DNA of 64,000 bases from Acidobacteriota bacterium (GTDB taxonomy: Bacteria; Acidobacteriota; Thermoanaerobaculia; UBA5066), in assembly GCA_029781975.1 (NCBI GenBank), contig JAKOVQ010000046.1, positions 157,389 to 221,388 on the forward strand, read 5' to 3'. Position 1 is the stretch's first letter, and every line of letters begins with the position of its first letter. The notes under the pieces were generated by a model. That model did not search any database. It worked only from the letters and a program-made list of their open reading frames with translations, and was not told the origin of the DNA. Below are positions 4,970 through 12,347 of this stretch, piece after piece. A program made the position numbers and the translations under genes.

Positions 4970-5187
4970 CGGCGTCGCGGGACGGGGGCGGAAACCATCT
5001 CCGCTCGGGGTAACTGAGGACTGAGCCCCGCGTTCTTGTACGGCGTGCAGCGGAATTCGCTCCGCTCCGCTCGCTTCGCCACATGAATGCTGGACACGAC
5101 TGGGGGAGGGAGGATCCCCTCAGCAGTTGTCCGTCGCCGAGTCCCTCGGCCAATCGATCCCTATCCCGTTGTACGGTAGGGCGGTCG

Positions 5188-5406
5188 ATGGAGGTGTCGA
5201 TGTCGACGGTGACGGTCTCCCCGAAGTTCCAGGTCGTGATCCCACGCGAGGTCCGGGAGGAGATGAAGCTGAAGGCCGGCGACAAGGTCCAGGTCTTCCG
5301 CTTCCGGAACCGCCTGGAGCTCGTCCCGGTGCGGGGGATCGCCTCGATGCGCGGGTTCCTGAAGGGGATCGACACGACCGTCGAGCGGGAGCCCGACCGC
5401 GTATGA
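5188..5406 (+). CDS. AbrB/MazE/SpoVT-type antitoxin (VapB-like)
   Basis: MSTVTVSPKFQVVIPREVREEMKLKAGDKVQVFRFRNRLELVPV; stop overlaps the ATG of a PIN-toxin remnant (ATGA). Confidence 0.85.
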   Translation: MEVSMSTVTVSPKFQVVIPREVREEMKLKAGDKVQVFRFRNRLELVPVRGIASMRGFLKGIDTTVEREPDRV

Positions 5407-6306: not shown

Positions 6307-8814
6307 ATGAGTGAACCGAAACGGAGGGTCCTCGCAGCTCTCACCACGGCCGCGGTCGCCGCCTGCGCCGTCGTGGCCGCGCTCGCCGGCCTCTACGGGG
6401 CGCCCGCGAGCGCCCAGGCGACGACCCCGGGCTACCGGGTGGTCGGCTGGAACAACCTCGGCATGCACTGCGACGACGCGGACTTCTCGGTCTTCTCGAT
6501 CCTCCCCCCCTACAACGTCCTCGTGGCGCAGGTCATCGACCCGAACGGCGCGCTGGTGACGAACCCGTCCGGAATCACGGTCACCTACCAGGCCGTCGCC
6601 GACCCGAGCGGGTCGATCAACACGACCTCCGCGGGCAAGACGAACTTCTGGGACCACATCTTTGCCCTCTTCGGCGTGTCGCTCCCGGTGGACTTCGGGC
6701 TGGCGGGCGCGAACATGCCGGGGATCTCGAACACGCCGCAGACCATGACCTTCGACGCGGCGCGCCACTGGTTCATCGCCGACGGCGTCCCCATCGTTCC
6801 GCGCGACGACGCCGGGAACCGGAACTTCTACCCGCTCATGCGGGTCTCGGTTCGGAACTCGTCGGGCACCGTCCTGGCCTCCAGCGACGTGGTCCTCCCG
6901 GTCTCGGACGAGATGTCGTGCAAGTCGTGCCACGCGTCCGGCTCCTCGGCGGCCGCCAAGCCGGCCGCGGGGTGGGTCTACGACTCCGACCCGGAGCGCG
7001 ACTACCGCCTCAACGTCCTCCGCCTCCACGACGACCGGCAGCTCTCCGACCCCACCTTCACGGCTGCCCTCCGGACCCTCGGCTACGACGCGGCCGGCCT
7101 GTACGCCACCGCCACGACCGGCGGACGCGCGGTGCTCTGCGCGGCCTGCCACGGCTCGAACGCGCTCCCCGGCACCGGCATCTCCGGCATCGCGCCGCTG
7201 ACCAACGCGGTCCACTCCCTCCACGCCGGGGTGATCGACCCGACCAACGGCCAGACGCTCGACGCGAGCACGAACCGCTCCGCCTGCTACCGCTGCCACC
7301 CCGGCTCGACCACCCGGTGCCTCCGGGGCGTCATGGGCAACTCGGTCGCGGTCGACGGCACGATGGACATCCAGTGCCAGAACTGCCACGGCCCGATGAG
7401 CGCCGTCGGCGCCTCCACGCGGCAGGGCTGGTTCCAGGAGCCCGCCTGCCAGAGCTGCCACACGGGAACCGCGGTCACGAACTCGGGCTCGATCCGGTTC
7501 ACCTCGGTCTTCTCCTCGCCCGGCGTGGTCCGGACGGCGGCCGACCAGACCTTCGCCACGAACCCGGACACGCCCCTTCCGGGCACCTCCCTCTACCGCT
7601 TCTCGGTCGGCCACGGGGGCCTCCAGTGCGAGGCCTGCCACGGCGCCACGCACGCCGAGTACCCGTCGTCGCACGTCAACGACAACATCATGGCCACGTC
7701 GCTCCAGGGGCACGCCGGGACGCTCGCCGAGTGCGGGGCCTGCCACAACCCGGTCCCCTCGACCCGGAACGGGGGGCCCCACGGGATGCACCCGGTCGGA
7801 CAGGCCTGGGTGAGCGCTCACGAGAGCGCGGCCGAGAGCGGAAGGTCCGCGTGTCAGGCGTGCCACGGCACGGACTACCGCGGCACCGTCCTCTCCCGCT
7901 CGTTCGCCGACCGGACCATCTCCGCCTTCGGGACGAAGAGGTTCTGGCGCGGCTTCCAGATCGGCTGCTACACCTGCCACAACGGCCCGTCGAGCGAGAG
8001 CGGCAGCTCGAACACGCCGGCGGTCGTCCAGGACCTGACGGCCGCCACCGGAGCCGGGGTGCCGGTCGCGATCCAGCTCCTGGCCACCGACGCGAACGGG
8101 AACCCGCTCACCCTCCGCGTCGTCTCGCAGCCGGCCAACGGGACGGTCGGTCTCTCCGGGACGACCGCGACGTACTTCCCCTTCGACGGCTTCTCCGGCT
8201 CCGACACCTTCACCTACGCGGCGTGGGACGGCTCGACCGACTCGAACCTGGGTCACGTCTCCATCGCGGTCGCGGGCGCCGGGTGCACCCTCGCCTGCAG
8301 CGCGGCCGCGCCCGCCACGGGGACGACCGGGACCGCCGTCCAATTCAGCGGCTCGGCCACCCCGTCGAACTGCACCGGCCCGATCGGCTACCTCTGGGAC
8401 TTCGGCGACGGGAGCCCGACCTCGACCTTCCAGAACCCGACCCACACCTACGCCTCCGCCGGGACGTTCACCTGGACGTTGACCACCTCGGTCGGCGGCG
8501 CCACCTGCACGCGGACCGGGACCATCACCGTCTCCGCCCCCCAGGGTTGCTCCCTCTCCTGCACCGCTAAGGTCCCGACCGGCGGACGGCGCGGGAGGTC
8601 GGTCACGTTCGCGGCCACGTCGACGCGATCGGGCTGTCCCGAGGGCCAGACCCTCCGCTACCGGTGGACGTTCGGGGACGGCGGGACCGCGACGGGGAGC
8701 ACGACGCAGCACACCTACAAGCGCACCGGCACGTACAGCTGGACGCTGACGGTCACCTACGCCTCGGCGACCTGCACCCGCTCGGGCACGATTACCATTC
8801 GCTCGGGGGACTGA
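6307..8814 (+). CDS. Secreted multiheme c-type cytochrome with Ig-like and two PKD domains
   Basis: Signal peptide; nine CxxCH motifs (CKSCH, CAACH, CYRCH, CQNCH, CQSCH, CEACH, CGACH, CQACH, CYTCH); cadherin/Ig-like segment; two WDFGDGS/WTFGDGG PKD repeats. Confidence 0.92.
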   Translation: MSEPKRRVLAALTTAAVAACAVVAALAGLYGAPASAQATTPGYRVVGWNNLGMHCDDADFSVFSILPPYNVLVAQVIDPNGALVTNPSGITVTYQAVADPSGSINTTSAGKTNFWDHIFALFGVSLPVDFGLAGANMPGISNTPQTMTFDAARHWFIADGVPIVPRDDAGNRNFYPLMRVSVRNSSGTVLASSDVVLPVSDEMSCKSCHASGSSAAAKPAAGWVYDSDPERDYRLNVLRLHDDRQLSDPTFTAALRTLGYDAAGLYATATTGGRAVLCAACHGSNALPGTGISGIAPLTNAVHSLHAGVIDPTNGQTLDASTNRSACYRCHPGSTTRCLRGVMGNSVAVDGTMDIQCQNCHGPMSAVGASTRQGWFQEPACQSCHTGTAVTNSGSIRFTSVFSSPGVVRTAADQTFATNPDTPLPGTSLYRFSVGHGGLQCEACHGATHAEYPSSHVNDNIMATSLQGHAGTLAECGACHNPVPSTRNGGPHGMHPVGQAWVSAHESAAESGRSACQACHGTDYRGTVLSRSFADRTISAFGTKRFWRGFQIGCYTCHNGPSSESGSSNTPAVVQDLTAATGAGVPVAIQLLATDANGNPLTLRVVSQPANGTVGLSGTTATYFPFDGFSGSDTFTYAAWDGSTDSNLGHVSIAVAGAGCTLACSAAAPATGTTGTAVQFSGSATPSNCTGPIGYLWDFGDGSPTSTFQNPTHTYASAGTFTWTLTTSVGGATCTRTGTITVSAPQGCSLSCTAKVPTGGRRGRSVTFAATSTRSGCPEGQTLRYRWTFGDGGTATGSTTQHTYKRTGTYSWTLTVTYASATCTRSGTITIRSGD

Positions 8815-9396: not shown

Positions 9397-10191
9397 CTAC
9401 GCCCGCGGTCTCCGGGGGACGAACGCCGAGGTCCGCCGGACGTACTCCGCGTACTCCGGCCGGGTCGCCGCCATGTGCGCGTCGAGCAGGGCGACGCCGG
9501 AGACCTTCACGAGGAGGAACGTCATCAGGGCCGGGGCGAAGACGGTCGCCCACCCCATCGCGGTGTCGAGGGACGCGACCCAGAACCCCCACCAGAGGAG
9601 CGCCTCGCCGAAGTAGTTCGGGTGGCGGCTGTACCGCCAGAGGCCGCGGTCGAGGACGCTCCTCGGCTCCGCCGGGACGGCCTTCGCGCGCTCGCGGCGG
9701 AACGCGGCGAGCTGGGCGTCGGCGGTGGCCTCGATCGCGAGGCCCGCGGCGAAGAGGCCGAGGCCGAGGAGGTCGGCGGGGGAGACGGCGTCGGGCGCCG
9801 AGGCGGCCGCCGCCAGCTGGAGCGGCGCCGAGATCAGGACGACCAGGAAGCCCTGGAGGAGGAAGACCTGGAAGAAGCTGACCCACCAGTACCGCTCGGG
9901 GCCGTAGCGGCGGCGGAAGGCGGCGTACCGCGGGTCCTCGGGCTTCCCGAGGCTCCGCAGGAGGAGGTAGAGGAAGAGGCGGATCGCCCAGACGCCGACC
10001 ATGACGAGGAGCAGCGTCTTGCCCGGCGTGAAGCCGGTCCGGGCGACGGTGTGCGCCGTGACGAGGAGGAAGCCAGCCGACCAGAACGGGTCGACGATGC
10101 TCGCGTCGCGCAGGAGGACGCTCGCCCCCCAGAGGACGGTCATCAGGGCGAGGACGAGCGCCGCGTTCCAGGCCAGGAGCTCGAACGTCAC
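9397..10191 (-). CDS. DUF1295 family membrane protein (steroid 5-alpha-reductase-like fold)
   Basis: VTFELLAWNAALVLALMTVLWGASVLLRDASIVDPFW..., GLWRYSRHPNYFGEALLWWGFW motif; GTG overlaps upstream stop. Confidence 0.85.
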   Translation of the reverse strand: MTFELLAWNAALVLALMTVLWGASVLLRDASIVDPFWSAGFLLVTAHTVARTGFTPGKTLLLVMVGVWAIRLFLYLLLRSLGKPEDPRYAAFRRRYGPERYWWVSFFQVFLLQGFLVVLISAPLQLAAAASAPDAVSPADLLGLGLFAAGLAIEATADAQLAAFRRERAKAVPAEPRSVLDRGLWRYSRHPNYFGEALLWWGFWVASLDTAMGWATVFAPALMTFLLVKVSGVALLDAHMAATRPEYAEYVRRTSAFVPRRPRA

Positions 10192-11228
10192 CGGGGTCTC
10201 TCCGCGGACGGCTCCGGCACGCTCGCCCCCGAGATCCAGCGGTCCATCTCCGCCCACCGCTCGAAGAGCCATCGGTCGCGGCCCTCGGCCGGGATCGTCG
10301 ACGCCCGAAAGCGGCGGAGCCGGACGCGAAGGGTCCCGCCGACGAGGGCTCCGTGCCAGAACCGCGGGAAGGTCGAGGCCCCCTCGAAGCCGGTGTGCTC
10401 GAGAAGGACGACGTCGAGCCCCTTCGCCTCCTCGAGGAGGGCGAGCGGACCGCGGAGCTTCGGGGGGAGGACGTTCCGGAACGAGGCCGCGATCGCGGCC
10501 AGGGCGTCTTCCCCCTTCTCCGCGAGCGCCGCGACGGCCGCCGCGCGCCGCGGGTCGCTGAAGCGCTTCCCCTCGGGGTAGATGAGGACGGCCGAGCGGG
10601 CGTCGAGCCCGCGGGCGAGGGCCGCGACGGCGGCGACCTCCGCCTCGAGGCCGGGTCCCCGCCGCCTCACGAAGGCGTTCGGAAGGCGGCGGCCGACGAT
10701 GTCGAGGCAGGGGTCCCAGAGGAGCTCGCGCTTCAGGACGTAGCGCAGGAGGAGGCGCCGGGGGTTCGCGACGAACGCCGCCGCGAGGACCGTGTCGGCC
10801 ACGCTGGCGTGGCGCGCGAAGAGGAGGAACGGGGCCTCGTCCGCGAGGGCGAGACCCTCGGTGGAGACCCTCATCGAGAAGAGGCGCCGGCTCCCGAAGA
10901 AGAGGGCATCGCTCCAGCGCCGCTGGAGCGCGGCGTTCCGCTCGAGCCAGCGCCGGGGCCCGCCGACGCGGCCGCCGAGCGTGACGACCCAGAGCGCCGC
11001 GGCGGCGACGACGCCGCCCGCCTCGCACGCGAGGTAGAGCGCGAAGAACCCGAGCGCCCGGGTCCGGGGGAGGGTCCTGGCCGCGCCGGCGAGGGTGTCC
11101 CAGGCGATGCCAATGGCGGCCCAGAGCGGGGCCGCGACCACCGCCGTCACCCCCAGCAGGAGGGCGACCGGTACGGTCACCGCCCGGCGGGACCAGATCG
11201 CCAGGAGCGGCTCGGACCGCGGCGTCAC
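10188..11228 (-). CDS. 1-acyl-sn-glycerol-3-phosphate acyltransferase-like (PlsC superfamily) membrane protein
   Basis: FLLFARHASVADTVLAA (HxxxxD), LIYPEGKRFS (EG motif), N-terminal TM helices; GTG start overlaps upstream stop. Confidence 0.78.
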   Translation of the reverse strand: MTPRSEPLLAIWSRRAVTVPVALLLGVTAVVAAPLWAAIGIAWDTLAGAARTLPRTRALGFFALYLACEAGGVVAAAALWVVTLGGRVGGPRRWLERNAALQRRWSDALFFGSRRLFSMRVSTEGLALADEAPFLLFARHASVADTVLAAAFVANPRRLLLRYVLKRELLWDPCLDIVGRRLPNAFVRRRGPGLEAEVAAVAALARGLDARSAVLIYPEGKRFSDPRRAAAVAALAEKGEDALAAIAASFRNVLPPKLRGPLALLEEAKGLDVVLLEHTGFEGASTFPRFWHGALVGGTLRVRLRRFRASTIPAEGRDRWLFERWAEMDRWISGASVPEPSAERPR

Positions 11229-11674
11229 CGGCGGGCGCCCTCCACGCCCCGCTGCGCGACCTTCCCCGCCAGGGCGGCGGCGGCCGTGAGGGCCACGCCC
11301 CAGGCGATGTCGATCGGCACGATCCAGGCCGGCCAGTCGCGGAGCACCGCCCAGTTCGTCAGCTCGTAGGTCGCGTAGGCCACGAGCCCGAGCCCGGCGC
11401 CCCGCCGGGCCGCGTGGAGGGGACCCTCGCTGCGGAGGACGGCCCACGCGACCGTGACCGCCACGTAGAACGCGTAGAAGAGGAGGGCGGCCGGCCAGAG
11501 GACCTCCGGGCGCCGGAGAGGACCGAGGGCGGAGTCGTAGAGACCGCGCGCTACGAAGCCGAGCCATGCGAGGTCGAGGACGAGCGTCGTCGCGGCCGTC
11601 GCCAGAGTCGCCAGCGTCGCCGCGGCCGTCGCCGCGGCCCCGGGTCCGGGTCCCTTCTCAGGCCGAGACTTCAA
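11225..11674 (-). CDS. DUF2177 family membrane protein
   Basis: LVLDLAWLGFVARGLYDSALGPL...LLFYAFYVAVTVAWAV...GLGLVAYATYELTNWAVLRDWPAWIVPIDIAWGVALTA. Confidence 0.85.
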   Translation of the reverse strand: MKSRPEKGPGPGAAATAAATLATLATAATTLVLDLAWLGFVARGLYDSALGPLRRPEVLWPAALLFYAFYVAVTVAWAVLRSEGPLHAARRGAGLGLVAYATYELTNWAVLRDWPAWIVPIDIAWGVALTAAAALAGKVAQRGVEGARR

Positions 11675-11795
11675 CGATCACCTCCGCCCGATCTCTACGA
11701 CATCATGACCCGCCCGGACTCATCGGTCCTCCCGGACCTCCTGGACGCGTCCTTCGCGAGCTTCGGGCGGGACGAGGCGACCCGGCCGCGCCCTG

Positions 11796-12347
11796 TCAGG
11801 CGGTGTGCGCCTTCACCCAGGCGACGTACCGGTCCATCCAGCCCTGAAGGAAACCTTTGGGGCCCGCCGCCAGGTCGCCCGCCTCGTCGAAGAGCCCGTC
11901 CTTCGCCTGGATGAAGGCCTCGGGCTGGCCGAGGGTCGGCACGTCCAGGTAGGCGAGGATGTTGCGCAGGTGCTGCTGCGCCATCGCCGTGCCGAAAGCC
12001 CCGGGCGAGGCGCCCAGGATGCCTGCGGGCTTGCCCGCCCAGGCGCTCTGGCCGTAGGGCCGCGAGGCCTGGTCGATGGCGTTCTTGAGGACGCCCGGGA
12101 TGGACCGGTTGTATTCGGGGGTGACGAAGAGGAGGCCCTGTGCGGCCGCGAGCTCCCCCTTCAGCCTCTTGACGGGCGCGGCCGGGCTCGCGTCGTCGTC
12201 CTGGTTGTAGAGGGGCAGGTCGCCGATCTGGGACTGCCTGAAAGAGAACTCCGCCGGCGCCAGCTTCGCGACGGCGCTGGCCAGCTTGCGATTAAAGGAG
12301 TCACGGCGAAGGCTGCCGACGACGACGGCGATCCGATAGCTGCTCAC
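11796..12347 (-). CDS. NADPH-dependent FMN reductase
   Basis: YRIAVVVGSLRRDSFNRKLA, LFVTPEYNRSIPGVLKNAIDQASRP signature. Confidence 0.92.
   Translation of the reverse strand: MSSYRIAVVVGSLRRDSFNRKLASAVAKLAPAEFSFRQSQIGDLPLYNQDDDASPAAPVKRLKGELAAAQGLLFVTPEYNRSIPGVLKNAIDQASRPYGQSAWAGKPAGILGASPGAFGTAMAQQHLRNILAYLDVPTLGQPEAFIQAKDGLFDEAGDLAAGPKGFLQGWMDRYVAWVKAHTA

Follow-up and report, generated by a model that had tools for sequence, protein, structure and literature searches.

The DNA analyzed here is a 64,000-nucleotide stretch from an Acidobacteriota bacterium, to which we refer as the window. Our analysis centered on three minus-strand genes, which run in the order DUF2177, PlsC, DUF1295 and comprise the following features:

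11675..11689, minus strand: Shine-Dalgarno region of the first gene (DUF2177), GGAGGTGATCG, read directly
11225..11674, minus strand: DUF2177 (PF09945) small membrane protein, 149 aa, with a TTG start behind GGAGGTGATCG
11225..11228, minus strand: 4-nt GTGA overlap between the DUF2177 stop and the PlsC start
10188..11228, minus strand: PlsC/LPLAT-type acyltransferase (PF01553), 346 aa, with a GTG start and an N-terminal hydrophobic stretch
10188..10191, minus strand: 4-nt GTGA overlap between the PlsC stop and the DUF1295 start
9397..10191, minus strand: DUF1295 (PF06966) membrane protein, 264 aa, steroid/sterol-reductase-like, with a GTG start

The three open reading frames, their coordinates and both 4-nt GTGA overlaps agree with those given in the initial annotation. 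Direct reading of the sequence revealed a strong, near-perfect Shine-Dalgarno element, GGAGG, 6 nt upstream of the DUF2177 TTG (GGAGGTGATCG-TTG), and a GGAG-type site inside the preceding gene for each of the two overlapped starts, those of PlsC and DUF1295. Together the genes make up a single membrane-lipid module that is translationally coupled, real and conserved. They are flanked on the same strand by genes for an FMN reductase (12347-11796) and a DUF4332 protein (9282-8878), neither of which is common to the loci of relatives. Neither a sigma-70-like promoter nor a terminator is conspicuous at the operon, and a light or ECF regulator was not observed at the locus. No Rfam matches were obtained in the window. 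Also in the window, on the plus strand, are a large multiheme c-type cytochrome gene with PKD and Ig-like domains and an MtrC/MtrF-like match (6307-8814) and a small gene with a MazE/AbrB-like antitoxin domain (5083-5406).

Pfam searches, with scores above the curated cut-offs in every case, matched DUF2177 to PF09945 (E=1.6e-31), the acyltransferase to PF01553 (E=2.8e-9; 37.3 bits versus a cut-off of 23) and DUF1295 to PF06966 across the full domain (E=1.7e-62; 1-235 of 235). The 5.37-Mb genome that contains the window has one DUF1295 and ten PF01553 matches; of the nine besides the operon's PlsC, two are far stronger. Judged by these sequence matches, the operon's PlsC is most likely a specialized paralogue, and a housekeeping role is unlikely given the two much stronger candidates elsewhere in the genome. 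The protein falls below the NCBIfam equivalog cut-offs for AGPAT, YihG and OlsA. Its active-site motifs are RHASVAD (HX4D) and PEGKR and, as the initial annotation had supposed, such catalytic motifs are intact in the homologues: HX4D is present in 34/34 sequences, and PEGxR is missing only from one that is truncated. In one homologue (L045) the HX4D motif, RHVSLGD, was read from the alignment, the automated scan having picked an earlier chance match. With the motifs intact, a dead PlsC was ruled out. Two further motifs, KxxLxWDPCLDIVGxRLPNxFVxR and LPPxxxG, are conserved in this PlsC clade.

The triad extends beyond the window genome, as the initial annotation would require, and across phyla: it recurs in a second genome of the Thermoanaerobaculia and at five loci in Myxococcota. 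Specifically, the full triad in the same order is present in the window, L043 (genome G013), L040, L042, L093 and L094, and L110 carries the same genes rearranged as DUF1295-DUF2177-PlsC. The occurrence of this PlsC is patchy: 2/19 genomes of the same order encode it, strong matches are found in 7/396 genomes of the phylum, six of the seven with an adjoining DUF1295, and the clade is represented in 26/195 Myxococcota genomes, with DUF1295 no more than 1.5 kb away in 16. When the PlsC-clade loci were pooled (n=34), DUF1295 lay alongside in 24 and DUF2177 in only 7. Thus, of the three-gene unit originally described, the PlsC-DUF1295 core stands, but the unit as a whole is not tightly fixed. GTGA/ATGA overlaps recur at both junctions in L043 and L040 and at the PlsC-DUF1295 junction in L041 and L047. 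Across the 24 linked loci the divergence of PlsC is correlated with that of DUF1295 (Mantel r=0.80, with 0/2000 permutations as high; r=0.87 without two outliers), and the same main clades appear in both trees.

A simple account of these loci would be happenstance co-transcription of genes with separate functions. One genome of the same family (G014) indeed retains DUF2177-DUF1295 without PlsC, and 10/34 PlsC-clade loci, some of them at contig ends, have no adjacent DUF1295. However, the conserved overlaps, the rearranged locus with the same three genes, the several separate pairings and the correlated divergence make this account rather improbable. Given a single DUF1295 and ten PF01553 matches in 5.37 Mb, together with overlaps that recur in relatives, linkage in 24 loci and correlated divergence, the pairing reflects more than chance. 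In G014, PlsC is cleanly absent and DUF2177 directly overlaps DUF1295 by GTGA (L184:7622-8839, plus strand). The DUF1295 of this genome is placed among triad sequences (support 81/90, with the fork open), which suggests that PlsC was lost; its DUF2177 carries a one-base frameshift that, in a draft genome, may be a sequencing error.

In the trees the window groups with Myxococcota loci and not with the other Acidobacteriota pairs. This grouping and the patchy occurrence suggest that the module may have spread by horizontal transfer. The search used returned no relatives on viral contigs. At L042 the triad shares an overlap with a photolyase gene. On a Myxococcota contig (L164), DUF2177-DUF1295 (242-1435) and a triad-type PlsC (10973-12019, plus strand) lie ∼10 kb apart, and between them is a MerR-type regulator with a weak B12-binding match. 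DUF1295 is also paired with other acyltransferases. On a Qipengyuania citrea plasmid (NZ_CP098495.1), a short, 208-aa LPLAT gene overlaps DUF1295 in the same order as in the triad, and in L049 an acyltransferase-DUF1295 pair occurs in reversed order. That different acyltransferases have been paired with DUF1295 more than once favors the view that reduction and acylation are functionally linked. In L170 (2576-5140), an ordinary 241-aa PlsC follows DUF2177, and the two run divergently from a DUF1295 gene.

DUF2177 and DUF1295 genes had been said to occur near cyclopropane-type modification genes, and they do adjoin cfa/DUF1365 genes in other genomes. That neighborhood is not anonymous, however, but is the furan/methyl fatty-acid (ufa) operon UfaM/UfaD/UfaO, where DUF1365 corresponds to UfaO and the FAD protein to UfaD of the published Rhodobacter sphaeroides pathway (PMC7380195). 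In the same order as the window genome, G003 has the arrangement UfaD - DUF1365 (UfaO) - CFA - DUF1295 - CFA2 - DUF2177 - SOUL, located downstream of a B12-binding MerR regulator, and variant ufa clusters with both DUF1295 and DUF2177 are found in L161, L185, L186 and L189. Among Burkholderiales, Caballeronia and Burkholderia plasmids carry ECF sigma - anti-sigma - DUF1295 - CFA - lipocalin - FAD oxidoreductase (UfaD) - DUF1365 - CFA, and a Rhodococcus plasmid harbors a related set.

The triad was found without cfa or DUF1365 in the operon, as the initial annotation anticipated. The window genome has no match to DUF1365 (UfaO, PF07103), which is likewise missing from 30/33 PlsC-clade genomes. 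A search for the UfaD FAD desaturase at E<=1e-20 gave no match in the window genome or G013, and positives in G003, G288, G459, G598 and G352. Neither the triad nor the genes that flank it encode a CFA-like SAM methylase (UfaM); CFA-type genes are present elsewhere in the window genome. With DUF1365 and UfaD both missing from the genome, we rejected a reading of the triad as a furan fatty-acid operon in its own right, and the original ufa substrate is probably absent. Because DUF1295 and DUF2177 occur in ufa clusters and DUF1365 is missing from the window genome and most genomes of the clade, the triad resembles the accessory half of a ufa operon that has been separated from the rest and reassembled around its own dedicated acyltransferase.

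The DUF1365, DUF2177 and DUF1295 genes of Chlamydomonas are induced together under singlet oxygen (PMC4067076), and ufaM/phrB clusters of Pseudomonas are light-induced (PMC9758184). In R. sphaeroides, deletion of the remaining ufa operon genes, RSP1087-1089, left the fatty-acid profile unchanged (PMC7380195). Accessory genes thus do not necessarily modify chains, with the proviso that RSP1087-1089 may not include DUF1295/DUF2177. The few papers that name the DUF1295 or DUF2177 families carry no function for them.

In many Myxococcota, the place of DUF2177 is taken by a ∼200-aa multi-span membrane protein without a Pfam family. This protein precedes PlsC in nine Myxococcota loci, in eight of which DUF1295 then follows, and it also occurs in a ufa cluster (L162). 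Examples are:

L098:8303-8893, minus strand: ∼200-aa membrane protein
L108:7320-7928, plus strand: ∼200-aa membrane protein
L162:5773-6453, minus strand: ∼200-aa membrane protein

Remote kinship between this protein and DUF2177 was rejected (hhalign probability 0.2%). The ∼200-aa protein is a candidate new component that bridges the triad and ufa contexts. The DUF2177 model, built from four sequences, had a pLDDT of 64.5, too poor for structure comparison.

Pfam, PDB profiles and a fold search all relate DUF1295 to the steroid 5-alpha-reductase/sterol-reductase/ICMT fold, in agreement with the initial annotation. PDB searches with single sequences returned nothing for DUF1295 or DUF2177. With profiles, DUF1295 matched the steroid 5-alpha-reductases 7c83 (2.7e-7) and 7bw1 (1.2e-6) and the delta(14)-sterol reductase 4quv (2.5e-4), compared to 0.38 for ICMT. 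Its AlphaFold model (pLDDT 79.5) had 4quv as the best fold match, with a probability of 1.00 and a TM of 0.61 at a modest E of 0.0076. The second fold match was 8xku chain G of the chloroplast Ycf2-FtsHi complex (probability 0.82, TM 0.51), which, going by the model, is possibly a plant member of the DUF1295 fold. The profile-aligned part of DUF1295 is the NADPH-side half, which includes the invariant D158 and the RHPNYFG motif (SRHPNYFGE in the window protein). In SRD5A2 the corresponding part binds NADPH.

DUF1295 could instead be an ICMT/PEMT-type methyltransferase, in which case the trio would methylate and re-acylate a lipid or lipidated protein. DUF1295 has sub-threshold Pfam matches to PEMT (2.4e-4) and ICMT (2.1e-3), and its RHPNY-type motif is partly common to ICMT. 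However, the only above-threshold Pfam match besides DUF1295 is to Steroid_dh, and the PDB profiles prefer reductases over ICMT by several orders of magnitude, which leaves methylation a distinctly improbable activity. A second possibility is that the substrate of DUF1295 is a polyprenol, a carotenoid or a sterol-like lipid and that PlsC esterifies the alcohol formed by its reduction, as might be expected from the closest solved relatives of DUF1295 being steroid and sterol reductases. Against this, the recurrent partners of DUF1295/DUF2177 are fatty-acid methylases, a desaturase and DUF1365, not isoprenoid genes, and PlsC retains ordinary HX4D and PEGxR motifs; we consider such an isoprenoid route fairly unlikely. 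Thus, of the acyl-chain or polyprenol pathway named in the initial annotation, a dedicated acyl-chain pathway is still the best reading and nothing points to polyprenol. PlsC could instead be the sole phospholipid enzyme, engaged in Lands-cycle type remodeling of acyl chains, with DUF1295 and DUF2177 as non-catalytic membrane partners or stabilizers. PlsC paralogues that differ in chain selectivity are known from bacteria (PMC9541089), and an unrelated membrane protein can replace DUF2177. The steroid-reductase-type D...RHPNYFG core of DUF1295, however, is invariant or nearly so among relatives at 35-80% identity, and pure remodeling therefore appears unlikely.

The reading that we favor, with confidence just short of even, is that of a ufa-derived coupled module with a stress-related role, in which DUF1295 would reduce a lipid chain, PlsC would install it and DUF2177 would help. 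The anatomy and the origin of the operon are shown, and its chemistry is inferred. DUF1295 would most likely use NADPH to reduce a C=C bond in an acyl chain of a membrane lipid, since in sequence and fold it is closest to NADPH-dependent steroid and sterol reductases. The PlsC-like enzyme would be a dedicated lyso-lipid acyltransferase that installs or replaces this chain, and DUF2177 a small helper. The module would thus work around its own acyltransferase in place of UfaM/UfaD/UfaO, and its likely purpose, to go by its relatives, would be to change the make-up of the chains during light or oxidative stress. The trio probably alters membrane fatty-acid chains and, by analogy, is probably stress-related. 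A further proposal, which we put forward as possible but doubtful, is an undescribed lipid pathway of Acidobacteriota and Myxococcota that does not involve furan fatty acids and serves in oxidative or light defense; in it, the DUF1295 reductase and its partner acyltransferase would make an unusual reduced chain or place it in membrane lipids.

Genes for DUF1295 and DUF2177 occur widely, also in algae, in which singlet oxygen induces both, and neither protein has a known activity. The triad ties them to an assayable enzyme class, apart from the furan fatty-acid enzymes, and offers a small system for testing their function without interference from UfaM/D/O. What is new here is the relation of the triad to the furan fatty-acid operons and its separation from them. 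The triad has in common with clusters of the kind of the ufa operon and its sigmaE-ChrR- or LitR/CarH-controlled relatives that homologues of DUF1295 and DUF2177 belong to such clusters, both in the same order and in other bacteria, but the triad lacks the methylase, UfaD and DUF1365 and has PlsC added. The Qipengyuania pair differs from the triad in that its LPLAT has no detectable similarity to the window PlsC, a TetR-type regulator lies downstream and DUF2177 is missing. Compared with TmPlsC (5kym), the window PlsC shares HX4D and PEGxR and gives a weak profile match (E=3.5e-4); within the PF01553 family, the triad PlsCs form a distinct clade with a long N-terminal hydrophobic part and are operonic with DUF1295. 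Finally, DUF1295 resembles the steroid 5-alpha- and sterol C14-reductases on the NADPH side and in its fold match to 4quv, but belongs to a separate Pfam family, and its N-terminal substrate half does not align with theirs, so that the same substrate is not indicated.
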